In this document: positions 17,575-51,507 of the stretch, piece by piece
How the letters are laid out: each line of letters opens with the position of its first letter
How positions within the stretch are numbered: position 1 is the stretch's first letter
Assembly: GCF_013403245.1 (NCBI RefSeq)
Contig: NZ_JACBNQ010000022.1
Coordinates: 1-64,000, forward strand
Reading direction: 5' to 3'
Length of the DNA stretch: 64,000 nucleotides
Origin: Sedimentibacter hydroxybenzoicus DSM 7310
GTDB taxonomy: Bacteria; Bacillota; Clostridia; Tissierellales; Sedimentibacteraceae
The notes under the pieces: model-generated
Told to the model about the DNA's origin: nothing
Seen by the model: the letters and a program-made list of their open reading frames with translations, nothing else
Databases searched by the model: none
Translations under genes and position numbers: made by a program

Positions 17575-17610
17575 TAACATGCTTCCATAATTTATTGTGT
17601 ATTTAATGTA

Positions 17611-17962
17611 TGGAGGCGGTGGGAGTCGAACCCACGTCCGAAAATATTTCCACAAGTCTTTCTCCGAGTGCAGACGATAATTTATGTTTCGCCTCAACCA
17701 TCGCCTATCGTCAAGCTATGGTATCGGCTATCTCCGGTTGTTCAGCTTAAGGTCGAAGAACCCCTTAGGCAGTTCCCTGCTTTAAATGATGCCCCAACTT
17801 AAACTGCAGGTCGTCTAAGCGGGACAAGCGAGCAGCTTACGCTGCGAATGCTAAATTATTGTTTTCTTTTGCGTTTATTTTTGTTGCCACTTTTTACGTT
17901 GTTTGGCGACAACGACTCGCTTAACTTACTTCTATACCCCCGTCGAAACCATTTACGCCCCC
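17611..17962 (-). ncRNA. ssrA: tmRNA (transfer-messenger RNA)
   Basis: About 352 nt. The 5' end GGGGGCGTAAATGGTTTCGA pairs with the 3' acceptor strand CGCCTCC; the T-arm reads GTGGGTTCGACTCCCAC. Discriminator A is followed by TAC, so CCA seems not to be encoded. The tag frame starting at GCA reads ATKINAKENNNLAFAA followed by TAA, a normal proteolysis tag ending in AFAA. Adjacent to smpB, its protein partner (7-bp gap). Rescues stalled ribosomes. The exact tag start is inferred. Confidence 0.93.
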
Positions 17963-39847: not shown

Positions 39848-41254
39848 TTAATATCTTCTTCTCATTGATGATGCCGGTATTCTCATCTCATCTCTGTATT
39901 TGGCAACAGTTCTTCTTGAAATATTTATACCGTTTTCACTTAGCATTTCAGCAATTTTTTGATCACTTAAAGGTTTTTGAGTATTTTCTTCATTTATAAA
40001 TTTTTGTATTTGAGTTTTAACGCTTGTTGAAGATATTCCATCTCCGTCAGATTCATTTATACTGCTTGCAAAAAAATATTTAAGCTCAAATAACCCTCTT
40101 GGTGTTTGAACATATTTACCGTTTGTAGCTCTGCTGACTGTTGATTCATGTACGCCTATATCGTCAGCCACATCCTTTAAAACCAACGGCTTCAAAGACG
40201 TTTTACCTTCATCGAAAAACTTTCTTTGAAACTTCAAAATAGATTCAGTTACCTTGTACAAAGTCTTTCTTCTTTGTTCTATACTCTTAATAAGCCACAT
40301 TGAAGAATTTAATTTATCGGTCAAAAATTTATTTGCTTCCTTATCATCTAAGTCACTGACCATGCTTTTATAATAATTGCTGATTGTAAGCGTAGGTAAA
40401 TTGTTATCATTAACAATAATTATATACTCATTGTTTATTCTTTCTACGGTTACATCGGGAACTATATATCTTATGTTATCACTATCAACTATAAATCCTC
40501 TTGAGGGCTTTGGTTCAAGCATTTTTATTATATCACAAATACCTTGGACTCGAGACACCGTTATGTGCAAATCCTTCGCTATCTTTTGAATTCTGTTAGA
40601 TGCAATATCTTCTAAATAGCTTTCTGCGATAATATAAGCATTTTTGTCCTGAATTCCTTTTTCCTTTAGTTGAATCATAAGACATTCGCTTAAATTTCTT
40701 GCCCCAACACCTACAGGGTCAAAAGTTTGTATTAATCTTAAAACTCTTTCAACCTCAACAACATCTTCATTTAACAATAAGCTGATATCCTGTACCGAAC
40801 AGCTTAAGTAGCCCTTATTATCAAGAGATTCAATTATAAACTCTCCGATTCTTTTTTCCTTATTAGTTTTAACTGACACACCAAGTTGAACCATCAAATG
40901 GTCTTTCAGAGACATTTTTTTGGATGTATAGCTTTCAAAGGATTGTTTTTCATCGGAATCTATATTTCTCTCATAAGCTTTATAGCTCAAATCATCATAT
41001 CGTTCAGTAATATCCTTCCAATCTACATCGTCATTTCTCTCTTCTTTTTCATATTTTGTATCGATTTCCTCATTAGAAGAATCTTGATTTTTATTATCAA
41101 CCGATTCAAGAAAAGGATTTACTTCCAACTGCTTGTATATAAATTCCATCAATTCCACATTATTAAATTGTAATATCTGAATCGCTTGTCTCAATTCAGG
41201 TGTCATAATAAGCTTTTGAGTCTGAGTAAGGTTTAATTCAAAACCCATTTTCAT
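39848..41254 (-). CDS. rpoN: RNA polymerase sigma-54 factor
   Basis: 468 residues from the ATG at 41254 (GAGGAG site). Region I is Gln/Leu-rich (LNLTQTQKLIMTPELRQAIQ), then an acidic linker, the core-binding domain, an HTH (VADDIGVHESTVSRATNGKY) and the C-terminal RpoN box ISRRTVAKYRDEM. It directs polymerase to -24/-12 promoters and needs an AAA+ activator. Such a promoter and activator are present at 59543 and 59696. Upstream of cggR, the usual clostridial place. Confidence 0.97.
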   Translation of the reverse strand: MKMGFELNLTQTQKLIMTPELRQAIQILQFNNVELMEFIYKQLEVNPFLESVDNKNQDSSNEEIDTKYEKEERNDDVDWKDITERYDDLSYKAYERNIDSDEKQSFESYTSKKMSLKDHLMVQLGVSVKTNKEKRIGEFIIESLDNKGYLSCSVQDISLLLNEDVVEVERVLRLIQTFDPVGVGARNLSECLMIQLKEKGIQDKNAYIIAESYLEDIASNRIQKIAKDLHITVSRVQGICDIIKMLEPKPSRGFIVDSDNIRYIVPDVTVERINNEYIIIVNDNNLPTLTISNYYKSMVSDLDDKEANKFLTDKLNSSMWLIKSIEQRRKTLYKVTESILKFQRKFFDEGKTSLKPLVLKDVADDIGVHESTVSRATNGKYVQTPRGLFELKYFFASSINESDGDGISSTSVKTQIQKFINEENTQKPLSDQKIAEMLSENGINISRRTVAKYRDEMRIPASSMRRRY

Positions 41255-41275
41255 AATATCACTCCTCAATATATT

Positions 41276-41486: not shown

Positions 41487-42659
41487 TTAGCAATCGGTTT
41501 TTTCTGCTGCAATAAATTCATTGGCTTCAAGAATTTTGATTGCCTCTTCCGCTTTTGCATCATTGACTAAAATTATAGGTCCCGTGCAGCCCATGCCGCT
41601 TTCTGCATATATATTATTTTTCCACAATATTTTAACGGCATCTTCTAAATCCATAACTTCTATACCTGAAATTTGAGAAGTTACAACAGTTTTTTCGGGA
41701 GCTTTTACTTCCTCAGCTTCTTCAGTTTTTTTAGAAGCCTTTAAACCGTTTAAAATATCTGTTAAACCTGCATTTTTAGCATTTTCAAATTCTTCCTTAG
41801 CTATTTTCATGCAATTGCCCCTTACCAGATCAGAAGCAAATTTAATCGCTCCTTCTACCAATGGTGCACCTGAAGCTCTTGAGATAATTAATATTAATTT
41901 GTCAAAGCCTTCTCCGATGCCGGGTCCGTATCCGTAGCCAAGTGATTCATAGCTGCCGCCTGTCGTAAATGATGAGAATATTTTTATCATTAAATTGCCT
42001 GTCAGGGAATCCATAACCATTACATCGCAGGAGCCCATTAAAAGATCATTTCCTCTCATAACCGCACCAACCTCTGATCTTTTAGACGATGCGAAGTTTA
42101 TGTCATAGCCCTGCTTTTTAAGCTTATTTAAAGCAATTTCTGTTTGCCTTGCTCCGTCAACATTAAGTATACCTACCGTAGGATTTTTGATGCCGCATGC
42201 TTTAGCTGTTATGATACCATAAATGGCATTCTTAATCATACCCTCAACTTTATCGGTTGATGAAGTACCTGTTGTAGTAGCTATAAACATTTCCTTACCG
42301 GTGCCCGGAGTTATAATTCTACCAACAGTTGACACCCCAATGGGGAACGGATAATGCATAGTAACCGCAGCATCAACTTCCTTGTTGTTAAGCATTTCTT
42401 CCATTACCTTGTGAGCTTCATCTTCAGATTTTACCAGTACGGTTTTAACTCCATCTGCTTCTTTTGTAGCAATAACCGTTGTATCGGCACCGTTCCTGTT
42501 TGCATTTAAAGACGCGCTGAAAATATTGTCTTCACCGTGCTCACTGCCTGTTGCCGTAACTAAAACTTTCGGCTTTTGTCCATATTCTCCGCTTATTAAC
42601 GTATCAGCCAATTGATTGAACACTTTACCGATAATTTGATTTACTTGTTTTTCGGACAT
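41487..42659 (-). CDS. grdD: Glycine reductase complex component C, subunit alpha (GrdD)
   Basis: 390 residues. FabH/PlsX-like fold; the C-terminal ESGMGCTGPIILV holds Cys358, which matches the acetyl-carrying cysteine of other GrdD proteins. With GrdC it releases acetyl phosphate from the Se-carboxymethyl group on GrdA. Last gene of the operon; strong GGAGG site and 8-bp gap to grdC. An acidic, Lys-rich linker (about 310-325) divides the two halves. Confidence 0.95.
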   Translation of the reverse strand: MSEKQVNQIIGKVFNQLADTLISGEYGQKPKVLVTATGSEHGEDNIFSASLNANRNGADTTVIATKEADGVKTVLVKSEDEAHKVMEEMLNNKEVDAAVTMHYPFPIGVSTVGRIITPGTGKEMFIATTTGTSSTDKVEGMIKNAIYGIITAKACGIKNPTVGILNVDGARQTEIALNKLKKQGYDINFASSKRSEVGAVMRGNDLLMGSCDVMVMDSLTGNLMIKIFSSFTTGGSYESLGYGYGPGIGEGFDKLILIISRASGAPLVEGAIKFASDLVRGNCMKIAKEEFENAKNAGLTDILNGLKASKKTEEAEEVKAPEKTVVTSQISGIEVMDLEDAVKILWKNNIYAESGMGCTGPIILVNDAKAEEAIKILEANEFIAAEKTDC

Positions 42660-44322: not shown

Positions 44323-44796
44323 TTACAGATATTTACAATAATCTTCACGGATTGGAGTCATTTCATTTATAATATCATCAACATCCAATACCATTTCCAT
44401 CATACTGATTTGTTCATCATAAACCGCTTCATCAATTTCATCTTTTATTTCCGGTTCGCATACATGAAATACTGAGAGTCCTAACTGAACTCCTGTCAAT
44501 GGACCTGCAAAAGTAGGGTCTCCGTTTGTTACGGTTTCTGCAGCAAGACCTGCCGCTTCACCTTCTGCTGCTCCAAGTACAACTACTATATTTTCAGCAC
44601 CGTACTTATCTGCAAATTCTTTAACCCTTTTTTGATTTTCTAAATCCATTGCGCCTGCGCTAGTTCAGACAAAGCATTCTGTAGACGAAAATATAACTTC
44701 GGCTCCGGCTGTTTTTACACATTCTTCTATAGCCGGTCCCGGTATTCCGTCTCTGTCGCCTATTATAATTACTTTTTTACCTTGTAATAAGCTCAT
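44323..44796 (-). CDS. grdA: Glycine reductase selenoprotein A
   Basis: 157 residues, read through an in-frame UGA at 44665-44667 as selenocysteine 44, in the family motif CFVU after SSTE. Start [20 protein letters not shown] at 44796 with GGAGG site; the part after the UGA alone would begin at an internal Met and lack the active site. GrdA accepts the carboxymethyl group from substrate-specific protein B as a selenoether and passes it to protein C; thioredoxin reduces the result. Length matches known GrdA. Flanked on both sides by GGGGACA repeats. Confidence 0.96.
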
Positions 44797-44950: not shown

Positions 44951-45268
44951 TTAAACGTATTTTTTAATCATTGCTTCTACATTTTCAGGAGTGGCATCTT
45001 CTTTAATCAATTCTTCAATTTTTTCTCCATCTTTGTAAACAGCAACTACAGGTAAACCTAATACCTTTTGTCCTATAGCAACTCTTCTTGCTTTAGTAGT
45101 ATTTAATTTAGTGAATTTAACTTTGTCACCATATTTTTCGGATAACTCCATCACGTGGGGCATCAAAGCTTCACATGGAGCACATCCGTCTCCAAAGAAG
45201 TCAACTAATATGTAGCCTTCACCTTGCAATACTTCTTGTTCAAAATTAGTTTTATCAAGTATTAACAT
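44951..45268 (-). CDS. trxA: Thioredoxin of the glycine reductase operon
   Basis: 105 residues, thioredoxin fold. The active site is GCAPC ([13 protein letters not shown]) in place of the usual WCGPC, a feature reported for thioredoxins of glycine-reducing clostridia. It delivers electrons to the GrdA selenoether/mixed sulfide cycle. 10 bp behind trxB; cis-Pro region [11 protein letters not shown] is normal. Confidence 0.94.
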
Positions 45269-47810: not shown

Positions 47811-49091
47811 CTATCTTGCACTCAATTTATTGAAGCCCATTTCATTTGTAGCTCCTGTAATTACCTGAAGTTCTGCGGTGATACTTCCGTCTGCATGTAA
47901 GCTTCCGTCAAATCCACCTGCAATTATATCTGCAACATCAGCATAACCGACTATTTTGTCCATAGGAGGAAGTTCAATAACTTCATTTGCATTGCCGCCT
48001 GTTACAACTGCATCAGCACTGGCATCGGCATCTGCAAGGGACTGGGAAGACCCGTCTCTGCCTGCATATTCATCAGTTATAATAACTGTCTTAATTCCTT
48101 TTGCCTCTATTTTCTTGCAGTTCATAATTAAGTCCGTATCAGGATTTCCAAAGCCTTCCTGTGAAATAATAACTCCGTCAACTCCTAAAAATTCAGCAAG
48201 CTTAGCACTCCAGTTAGAAGATCTTTCCTTATCTGCAAGATAAACATTTTCATTCGTAATAATAACACCTACAAAGTTTAATGTCTTGCCATGCTCTGCA
48301 AACAAGTCATGAATCACAGGGTTATTTAAATGATGATACGTAGTATTTTTGTCACATGCAGATACGCAATTGCCGCTTACGATTGCTCCGTCCATTAATT
48401 CGGTCGGATAAATCATAGTTGTCAATGATTGCTTTGCATCAACACCGTATACGTATGTATCGTGCATTAAGCCTTGACTCTGAAGCATTAAGACATAAGC
48501 AACTCTCGGTAATTCAGGATACATTTTAAATCCTTCTATAATTGAAGGTGTTTCAAATGTTTCAACAACATCAGGAGTTAAGTTTCTTGCAAGCTCTCCA
48601 AGATAAATTGCTACCTTGTAGCCGGCAAATCGTAATGCTTTTTCATGTTCATGCTGTTTTAATCCATCAATCGGTTCACAAACCAGGACTAAATTATTTA
48701 GCTGTGAAAACGGTGTATACTCGGCTCCGGGTCCTGTCATATCAATGATACCTTCCTGGAAGCCGACTATCTTACCGGTTGTAACAACAGCTGCACCTTT
48801 TAAAACATTAGTTTTTCCGGAACCAACAGTTTCAACCTTATTCACCATGCCGGGGAATATTCCTCCGGGTCCTTGAACCTTAACTCTTGGCTCTATAACG
48901 TCCTTAACAGGCATTATACGGATGCTTTCACCGGGCTTAGCTAATTCAACATCAGCTGATTTAAAATTTTGATCTTCAAGAATTATTTGCCTTACTTCTT
49001 CCTTGTTAACATACAGTGTTTCATTTTCAACCTTTGACTCTGCCGCAAACTGTATGTCCTTAATAAAAATACTGCCTAATTCTAACTTCAA
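47811..49091 (-). CDS. grdE: Glycine reductase component B, precursor of alpha and beta subunits (GrdE)
   Basis: 426 residues. Proprotein that is cleaved between Asn241 and Cys242 (SGNCVSACDKN) to give a pyruvoyl-carrying alpha subunit, as described for Clostridium sticklandii and relatives. The pyruvoyl group forms the Schiff base with glycine. First structural gene of the reductase, 34 bp behind grdX. Confidence 0.94.
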   Translation of the reverse strand: MKLELGSIFIKDIQFAAESKVENETLYVNKEEVRQIILEDQNFKSADVELAKPGESIRIMPVKDVIEPRVKVQGPGGIFPGMVNKVETVGSGKTNVLKGAAVVTTGKIVGFQEGIIDMTGPGAEYTPFSQLNNLVLVCEPIDGLKQHEHEKALRFAGYKVAIYLGELARNLTPDVVETFETPSIIEGFKMYPELPRVAYVLMLQSQGLMHDTYVYGVDAKQSLTTMIYPTELMDGAIVSGNCVSACDKNTTYHHLNNPVIHDLFAEHGKTLNFVGVIITNENVYLADKERSSNWSAKLAEFLGVDGVIISQEGFGNPDTDLIMNCKKIEAKGIKTVIITDEYAGRDGSSQSLADADASADAVVTGGNANEVIELPPMDKIVGYADVADIIAGGFDGSLHADGSITAELQVITGATNEMGFNKLSAR

Positions 49092-49125: not shown

Positions 49126-49485
49126 TTATATATCTAACGCGCTTTCAAGCACTGTTAAATCAATTAACTTAAAATCTTCTATTATTTTATCTGTCAAATT
49201 TATTAGTTTATTCTTGTTAAATTTGTCATAAGACATTATTGAATTCTCAATTATATATACTGAATCAAAATTTAATGTACCCTTATTTTCTGAAATTATG
49301 ATAGATTTATAAGGTGTTTCATTTGGCTTTAAACTGCTTGATAACGGATGAGTCAGGAGTTCATGCCCCTCCTGAATCTTGTCCCTGACTTTTACAAGCA
49401 CATCCCTGTAACTTCCTTTAATAAACAGTACATTGCAACTATCTTTAAATTTTTGATATACCCAATCATTATTCGTTATTATCAT
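49126..49485 (-). CDS. grdX: GrdX protein
   Basis: 119 residues from the ATG at 49485 (site GGGTGG), beginning MIITNN, as GrdX proteins do. A longer reading from TTG at 49539 adds a hydrophobic MSKRIIMFALVIFLTGGC stretch that looks like a lipoprotein signal, but it lacks a good ribosome site. GrdX is almost always first in grd operons; its role is not known. The LTHPLSSSLKPNETPYKSI segment is typical. Directly follows the glycine riboswitch. Confidence 0.85.
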   Translation of the reverse strand: MIITNNDWVYQKFKDSCNVLFIKGSYRDVLVKVRDKIQEGHELLTHPLSSSLKPNETPYKSIIISENKGTLNFDSVYIIENSIMSYDKFNKNKLINLTDKIIEDFKLIDLTVLESALDI

Positions 49486-49594
49486 ACAACCACCCGTTAA
49501 AAATATAACTAACGCAAACATAATAATTCTCTTGCTCAATAGAAAGGATTGACGTCCTTCCTAAGTTTTTTTAATAATAGGAACCCCTTATTAT

Positions 49595-49639
49595 ATAAAA
49601 AAGCAGCAAGGAAAATAAAAAATATTCTGCCTGCTGCTC
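49595..49639 (-). terminator. Riboswitch-controlled terminator
   Basis: Minus-strand AGCAGCAGG pairs with CCTTGCTGCT (one bulge), followed by a T-run. The 5' arm overlaps the 3' end of the second aptamer, so glycine binding could prevent it from forming and switch the operon on. Confidence 0.75.
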
Positions 49640-49822
49640 TGTATTAAACCTGAGAGTTTCCTCATATAATTATAATGAGTTGCCCCTACGGTGCTTTCGC
49701 TTTTCAGAGATTTGTCAGTATACGGTCCTTTTGCCTGAGAGCATCATCTATAATATGGCTAACATTATATACTTACTCCTTCGGCGCTGTTAATATCATA
49801 ACAGTCTCTCCCGCAAACTTCA
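49622..49822 (-). promoter_or_regulatory. Tandem glycine riboswitch (gcvT type)
   Basis: Two aptamers: the first has GCGGGAGAGACTG, GCGCCGAAGGAG and CTCTCAGGCAAAAGGACCG; the second has ATCTCTGAAAAGCGAAAGC, ACCGTAGGGGCAA and AAACTCTCAGGTTTAATACA with a short linker. Upstream of grdX-grdE on the minus strand. Known class: tandem glycine aptamers that control glycine breakdown. Here the controlled genes are glycine reductase. Confidence 0.93.
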
Positions 49823-49845
49823 TCCAAACTATTCAATTTTATTTA

Positions 49846-49874
49846 ATTATATATATAAACACATAGGAAATCAA
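49846..49874 (-). promoter_or_regulatory. Promoter of the grd operon
   Basis: Minus-strand TTGATT and perfect TATAAT with a 17-bp spacer, about 20 bp before the first aptamer. Confidence 0.65.
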
Positions 49875-49881
49875 GTAGTAT

Positions 49882-51507
49882 TTATGACTTTTTTTCATTT
49901 TTATTCGCAACAGCTTCAAGTATTGACTCTGCAATATTTGTTGAATGGTCGCCTATTCTTTCAAGATTGCTTATAATATCCAAAAACACTATTCCCGCGC
50001 TTGGTTCGCAAACAAAATTGTTCAATCTTTCAATATGATTTTTTCTTAAATTTTTATACATTTCATCTACTATATCATCATTGGCTATTATTTTGTTACA
50101 TTCATCACAATCCATGGTTGCAATAACGGTTAAAGTTTCTTTGTACATTTTCTTTGTTTCTTCAAACATTTCTCTTAAATCTTCATTTGCTTGGTCGGAA
50201 AAAATTATTTTGTTTTCAATTTTATCTAAAACCAATTCTCCGATATTATCAGCATGGTCTCCGATTCTTTCGATATCGTTAATAGAATTTAACAATACAA
50301 CCAATTTATCTTTTTCATAATTAGTTAAAGATACCTTATCTAATTTTACTAAATATTCAATAGTTTTTTTATTTAATTCATTAACATTCAATTCAATTTC
50401 AAATACCTTAAGGGCGGTTTCCTCATCATTAGTAAAAAAGGCTTTAATTGCTGTTTCAAATTCCTTAAGAGCCAAGTTTCCTAAATGCAACACTTCCTTA
50501 GAGGCCTGTGTTAATGCAATTGACGGAGTGACCAATAATCTGTCATCTATATATTTTGTAACTTGCTGCGTTTCATCGCCATTATCTTTTATTAAAATTT
50601 GAGAAATTTTAACTAATAAATTTGCAAAGGGCAACATAATAACCACATTGATTATATTAAAAAATATATGACCTGCCGCTATCTCTTGCGGAACATAATT
50701 GGGAACCATGTTAAATATTATCCATTCAACAGGTCCTCTTAAGAATATCATAAACAGCAGCGTACCCGAAATATTAAACAGTAAGTGAATTACAGCAGCT
50801 CTTTTTGCAGTTTTATTTGCTCCTATACTTGCTAGAAGTGCAGTGACACACGTACCTATATTTTGTCCGAAAACTATGGGAAATGCCTGCTCAAAAGTTA
50901 TAACACCGGTTGTGGCAACGGCAATTAAAAGACCTGTGGTGGCACTGCTGCTTTGAAGAATTGCAGTTATAATAAATCCCACAAGTATTCCCAGGTATGG
51001 ATTATTAAATTTCGTTATAAGTCCTGTAAACATTGGATTGGATTGCAATGGCTTCATAGCATCACCCATTAATTTCATACCTATAAACAGAATACCAAAG
51101 CCTATTATAACCTCTGCAATACTTTTTATTTTTTTCTTTTTAGAAGCTAAGTACATAAACACGCCGACACCAACCATAAGGGTGGCAAATTGCGTAATAT
51201 TTAATGACACTAAAAAAGCAGTGACAGTAGTACCGATGTTAGCACCCATTATAATTCCGACTGCTTGATTTAAATTCATTAATCCTGCATTTACAAAGCC
51301 AACCACCATAACCGTAGTAGCACTGCTGCTCTGAATTACACCCGTTACTAAAGCTCCTACCAATACACCCATTAACCTGTTTTTTGTCAAGGCAGCTAAA
51401 ATATCCTTCATTTTACTTCCGGCTGCTTTTTGAAGACCATCACTCATATAGCTCATTCCAAACAGGAATAATCCCAAGCCTCCAATTAAACTAATAGCAA
51501 TACTCAT
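49882..51507 (-). CDS. Na+/phosphate cotransporter family protein with PhoU-like domain
   Basis: 541 residues. Two Na/Pi modules with the QSSSATT signature repeated (GVIQSSSATTVMVVGF and AILQSSSATTGLLIAV), about eight or nine membrane segments (1-310), then a C-terminal PhoU-like helical domain (about 335-535, RIGDHADNIGE and RIGDHSTNIAE). Probably imports phosphate with Na+. 8-bp gap after trmL on the same strand. Confidence 0.92.
   Translation of the reverse strand: MSIAISLIGGLGLFLFGMSYMSDGLQKAAGSKMKDILAALTKNRLMGVLVGALVTGVIQSSSATTVMVVGFVNAGLMNLNQAVGIIMGANIGTTVTAFLVSLNITQFATLMVGVGVFMYLASKKKKIKSIAEVIIGFGILFIGMKLMGDAMKPLQSNPMFTGLITKFNNPYLGILVGFIITAILQSSSATTGLLIAVATTGVITFEQAFPIVFGQNIGTCVTALLASIGANKTAKRAAVIHLLFNISGTLLFMIFLRGPVEWIIFNMVPNYVPQEIAAGHIFFNIINVVIMLPFANLLVKISQILIKDNGDETQQVTKYIDDRLLVTPSIALTQASKEVLHLGNLALKEFETAIKAFFTNDEETALKVFEIELNVNELNKKTIEYLVKLDKVSLTNYEKDKLVVLLNSINDIERIGDHADNIGELVLDKIENKIIFSDQANEDLREMFEETKKMYKETLTVIATMDCDECNKIIANDDIVDEMYKNLRKNHIERLNNFVCEPSAGIVFLDIISNLERIGDHSTNIAESILEAVANKNEKKS

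Follow-up and report, generated by a model that had tools for sequence, protein, structure and literature searches.

Leader and operon at the grd locus

The window analyzed here is a stretch of 64,000 nucleotides from Sedimentibacter hydroxybenzoicus DSM 7310, which contains a glycine reductase (grd) operon together with its leader. When the minus strand is read from 49874 to 49597, a promoter, two glycine aptamers and a terminator follow one another ahead of the operon. The elements of the leader and the genes downstream are the following.

49846–49874, minus strand: promoter, TTGATT from 49874, spacer of 17, TATAAT ending at 49846
49711–49828, minus strand: proposed leader–linker P0 with kink-turn sequences (outer limits), UUUG 49828–49825 with CAAA 49714–49711, read by eye
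49713–49823, minus strand: glycine aptamer 1, canonical, RF00504, 67.9 bits (E 5.3e-12 in the window, cut-off 32)
49637–49709, minus strand: glycine aptamer 2, divergent, P1 5′ strand CTCTG 49709–49705, P1 3′ strand CAGAG 49641–49637, core common to relatives
49597–49640, minus strand: intrinsic terminator, 5′ arm 49640–49630, T-tract 49602–49597, −19.4 kcal/mol by folding
49126–49485, minus strand: grdX, NF038093 (GrdX), 140.4 bits; the listed ORF runs to 49539
47811–49091, minus strand: grdE (component B subunit), PF09338, 705.7 bits
46491–47795, minus strand: grdB, selenoprotein with in-frame TGA, PF07355; SECIS element 46751–46714, RF01990
45279–46214, minus strand: trxB, thioredoxin reductase, TIGR01292 above cut-off
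44951–45268, minus strand: trxA, thioredoxin, NF047697 above cut-off
44323–44649, minus strand: grdA, ORF-listed portion (from profile position 48 on), PF04723 and NF040748
42668–44233, minus strand: grdC (component C beta), NF040746 above cut-off
41487–42659, minus strand: grdD-like ORF, named from position and sequence only

The Pfam, NCBIfam and Rfam families found on this strand bear out the proposal of an earlier sequence-only reading that the leader precedes a glycine reductase operon. The glycine-type family TIGR01917 was the best match on both halves of grdB, with 560.8 and 135.8 bits, each of which alone is below the cut-off of 602.2. The GrdX protein most likely starts at the ATG at 49485, because the NF038093 match covers the longer ORF from residue 18 on. 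If it does, and if transcription starts near 49839 as presumed, the leader is about 355 bases long. Between the terminator and grdX, two small inverted repeats are apparently present (49538–49592, minus strand, by eye). The grdD-like ORF is followed on the same strand by a sigma-54-like ORF (39848–41269, minus strand), whose relative in locus L127 matches sigma-54 families. Elsewhere in the window there is a tmRNA gene (17608–17962, minus strand; RF00023, 186.1 bits).

The promoter and its 17-bp spacing, which had also been proposed from the sequence, were confirmed by comparison with relatives. By eye, L004, L005 and L009 have identical hexamers with the same spacing in the corresponding position, and L007 and L011 have near-matches. 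A consensus promoter scan of the window was rejected as evidence, as its 13 sites equaled the chance level (13.2 expected in shuffled sequences). The gene of a Na/Pi cotransporter (49882–51507) ends seven bases ahead of the −35 hexamer of the grd promoter (intervening stretch 49875–49882, minus strand). An end so close to the −35 hexamer leaves the gene no space for a separate terminator, and the terminator of the riboswitch may also end the cotransporter transcript.

The search with the RF00504 covariance model placed the leader in this family by aptamer 1, which scored 67.9 bits against the curated 32 bits that at least one aptamer should exceed. Aptamer 2 gave no RF00504 match at the gathering cut-off in the scan of the window, and in the genome-wide search (3,809,287 bases in 71 contigs) it scored 29.8 bits (E 8.4e-4; 49717–49629, minus strand), which is just below the cut-off. 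This genome search returned three matches, that is both aptamers of the grd leader and a third match, of 57.9 bits, which lies on a different contig ahead of a putative gcvT ORF named from its sequence. The shared core of the second aptamer was nevertheless found within its P1 pair, as the window has CTCTG/CAGAG, CCGTAGG and CTCTCAGG; the conservation of this core in relatives shows aptamer 2 to be real. The J1/2 sequence is GGAGAG in aptamer 1 and AAAAGC in aptamer 2, the J3/1 of which is U/A-rich. The two-aptamer model RF03166 spans both aptamers end to end with 80.1 bits (E 2.8e-17), and it aligns a leader–linker pairing at the proposed P0, although this model is itself below its cut-off of 110. 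Membership in the glycine-GGAnGA class described by RF03166 was rejected on that score; the class resembles the window leader in its two-aptamer layout and in a leader–linker pairing, which is putative in the window, while aptamer 1 of the window has GGAGAG in J1/2. Hence, the expectation that covariance models would find two aptamers was fully borne out for aptamer 1 and, for aptamer 2, only at scores below the curated thresholds. The interval 49595–49874, to which the riboswitch had been assigned, fits the elements found.

Terminator overlap in the window and in related leaders

To compare the leader with its relatives, 80 grdE loci were used (designated L), the top-ranking ones among 581 confirmed candidates, which therefore lean to close relatives; the closest named species among these best 80 of 581 was Sedimentibacter saalensis, at 90% identity. 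When their genomes were searched with RF00504, 62 of the 80 loci had a match ahead of grdE and in the same orientation. Two matches were found in 36 of these leaders, and aptamer 1 had the higher score in all 36 (medians 61.7 vs 41.9 bits). Two matches, the one in L008 (46.6 bits) and the second one in L038, failed the mapping check and stand outside the 62 and the 36. In the remaining 18 loci there was no mapped RF00504 match upstream of grdE. Three of them (L047, L057, L074) offer under 550 bases of upstream sequence, and in L008 the match is the unmapped one, while the other loci without a match count against a universal link of the aptamer with grdE. A motif pattern found both aptamer cores in 52 of the 80 loci, each of which also has an RF00504 match. 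These 52 loci and the window make up the tandem set of 53 used below; the other 28 of the 80 were dropped because the pattern failed to detect both cores in them. The kink-turn motif pair of the leader–linker is present in 41 of the 53 tandem leaders, including the window.

The hairpin of the terminator was absent from the output of a simple terminator scanner, which accepts loops of 3–8 bases, and folding was used instead. In the window the 5′ arm of the terminator contains the AGAG of CAGAG, the P1 3′ strand of aptamer 2. This is the position in which an ON-type leader should have this strand, and it upholds the earlier claim that the terminator overlaps the end of aptamer 2. Of the four bases that pair with this AGAG in the terminator, three belong to the T-tract. 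When P1 was forced in the folding, the cost was 4.5 kcal/mol with the terminator complete, and a 7-bp terminator stem persisted, one base from the T-tract. The short overlap, which falls mostly in the U-tract, and the small energy margin suggest that the switch may leak, and control by the window leader is likely leaky.

A hairpin followed by a T-tract was found in 51 of the 53 tandem leaders. In 48 of the 53, the 5′ arm of the terminator takes up four or more bases from the 3′ side of P1 in aptamer 2, and in three more the overlap is two bases. The leaders L044 and L059 had no hairpin under the rule used and are counted so among the 53, and L033, for which the P1 chosen by the script looks wrong, is counted as given. 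Sequence changes are consistent with pairing of the overlapping strand in the terminator. In L006, L009, L011 and L072, which are leaders with a hairpin found, CAGGG replaces CAGAG, and the terminator partner is C instead of T in four out of four; in L070 all three strands are changed together (CACTG, CAGTG, CAC). This covariation rests on few cases, because most leaders keep CTCTG/CAGAG.

The small margin in the window, as well as the overlap of 2–4 bases in the closest relatives (L004, L005, L007, L009, L010, L011), could also be expected if the leader folded yet controlled little, and the operon were set mainly by another regulator. Also in its favor, loss of SigL in Clostridioides difficile was reported to raise the grd operon 8- to 60-fold (PMC7438776). 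This explanation is nonetheless improbable, as the aptamers, the terminator and their overlap are kept in the same closest relatives, and the promoter, judged by eye, in most of them.

Probable direction of the response to glycine

The aptamers and the hairpin are present in the leader, and their overlap is conserved among its relatives. Very probably, the leader is a tandem glycine riboswitch of the ON type, which controls the glycine reductase operon by transcription attenuation. In such a switch, when glycine is lacking, the P1 3′ strand of aptamer 2 would join the base of the terminator hairpin beside the U-tract, and RNA polymerase would stop ahead of grdX. When glycine is present, the fold of both aptamers, in which the canonical aptamer 1 takes the lead, would hold the P1 of aptamer 2, so that the base of the terminator would be unable to close onto the U-tract and the operon would be read. 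For S. hydroxybenzoicus we infer the binding of glycine as well as the direction and the size of the response.

The ON direction had been predicted by the sequence-only reading, and it is supported by the covariance matches, the gene families downstream and the overlap of P1 with the terminator in 51 of 53 leaders. It also agrees with a review in which the C. difficile grd operon is credited with a glycine riboswitch and its transcription is said to go up upon glycine addition, which is taken to suggest an ON switch (PMC11477304); a further paper says the same briefly (PMC10880999). The likeness of that operon (CD2357-48) to the window is one of description, as a glycine riboswitch lies ahead of the grd operon in both, while induction by glycine is reported for C. 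difficile and the ON response of the window is predicted. The further prediction, which confines transcription of the operon to times of abundant glycine, goes too far, as the overlap in the window is just AGAG, three of whose four partners are T-tract bases. Given this short overlap in the T-tract and the margin of 4.5 kcal/mol, the ON direction rests more on the relatives than on the window leader.

The opposite arrangement, in which glycine shuts the operon down, is allowed by the class, because the glycine riboswitches of symporter genes in Vibrio cholerae and Streptococcus pyogenes are OFF switches (PMC11477304). To see how direction goes with gene context, loci were compared that came from two sources, 118 genomes belonging to the same class and the genomes in which the grd loci lie. 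The assignment of genes is valid for matches on the plus strand, and the 16 loci used besides L002 are on this strand; Pfam was run on L084, L097, L108 and L094, while the other loci were grouped by BLAST. Eleven loci stand ahead of sodium:alanine symporter or serA genes. Eight of these 11 leaders have two matches, and in all eight aptamer 2 outscores aptamer 1 (pairs read from the score tables). The second aptamer contains CAGG[CT]AAAAGGAC in 10 of the 11 and GGAGA in 9 of the 11, the misses being stretches outside the printed sequence; the sequence printed for L108 lacked the aptamer, and that for L095 showed its end alone. In the gcvT leaders aptamer 1 was stronger in four out of four, as in the grd leaders. 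A comparable dependence on the regulated gene was described for glycine cleavage and transport genes in the study of Crum et al. (PMC6944388).

Judged by their aptamers, the grd leaders side with the glycine-cleavage (ON) group. This, together with the location of the P1 3′ strand of aptamer 2 in the terminator stem and with downstream genes that consume glycine, makes an OFF switch very unlikely. The ON-type layout favored here is in itself ordinary, because it has already been described in a related bacterium, and it is now better documented. In many Clostridia, glycine reductase operons are preceded by the tandem ON-type arrangement that is also seen at the glycine cleavage operon. The 2019 survey of glycine riboswitch contexts leaves this one unmentioned, and in its main text the words 'reductase' and 'stickland' occur 0 times (PMC6944388), as does 'grd' in the main text of two surveys of riboswitch-regulated genes (PMC3766115, PMC12452182).

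Two Sedimentibacter relatives have an extra glycine aptamer about 10 kb from the grd leader (L116 1501–1589 and L127 1501–1589, with 70.0 and 64.0 bits, respectively). It faces a small ORF, which we take to be an ACT domain, and a DUF711 gene, and in L127 it is divergent from the sigma-54 gene. A glycine riboswitch ahead of rpoN in L127 was considered and rejected, as the aptamer is on the other strand. The whole-genome RF00504 search found no counterpart of this extra aptamer in the genome of the window.

The second aptamer of grd leaders

The less ordinary point of the grd leaders is their conserved, non-canonical aptamer 2. The J1/2 sequence GGAGAG is present in 42 of the 53 first aptamers vs 5 of the 53 second ones, and CAGG[CT]AAA in 45 vs 4. 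The rest of the core is kept in both, with CCGNAGG in 53 first and 50 second aptamers and CTCAGG in 51 and 52, respectively, of the 53 leaders. The mean pairwise identity was 0.756 for aptamer 2 and 0.653 for aptamer 1, over stretches that differ in length (averages of 76 vs 102 bases). The view that aptamer 2 is in plain decay is weakened by this identity and by the kept core. Aptamer 2 of grd leaders is a conserved special form, more than a decayed copy.

The grd leaders form a natural set in which to ask which aptamer matters in an ON switch. A refinement compatible with the ON switch is that aptamer 2 no longer requires bound glycine and serves as a structural arm linking aptamer 1 to the terminator, so that the leader would be a one-ligand ON switch on its way to a 'ghost' aptamer state. 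The rarity of GGAGAG and CAGG[CT]AAA in second aptamers speaks for it, as do the data on the gcvT leader of Bacillus subtilis, in which a change in the pocket of aptamer 2 left regulation intact, while a change in the pocket of aptamer 1 reduced it to about a tenth (PMC5666159). The core otherwise kept in aptamer 2, and an identity not below that of aptamer 1, argue the other way, and we regard this refinement as possible, with the balance against it. We would propose with similar caution a broader generalization, namely that the ON (catabolic) switches of Clostridia grd and gcvT genes carry a distinct conserved aptamer 2, with J1/2 mostly RAAAG and a U/A-rich J3/1, which could be the moving part of the switch with glycine binding dispensable, and that aptamer sequences alone might tell ON from OFF.

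The account of the B. subtilis gcvT leader describes two aptamers, a leader–linker kink-turn the breaking of which abolishes regulation, and an ON switch acting by a terminator (PMC5666159). By this description it resembles the window in its tandem aptamers and terminator-based layout; it differs in the operon regulated, and aptamer 2 of the window combines AAAAGC in J1/2 with a U/A-rich J3/1. The one-ligand reading also draws support from the same genome as the window, where the gcvT leader (L002 1409–1610, minus strand) has one RF00504 match and, by eye, a P1-like CTCTG/CAGAG remnant beside the terminator. This leader exemplifies the singleton type-1 glycine riboswitch with a ghost aptamer (Crum et al. 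2019), which is like the window in its canonical aptamer 1 and, by eye, in a second P1 overlapping the terminator. It differs in that its second aptamer is lost save for P1, while the grd leader retains the second aptamer.
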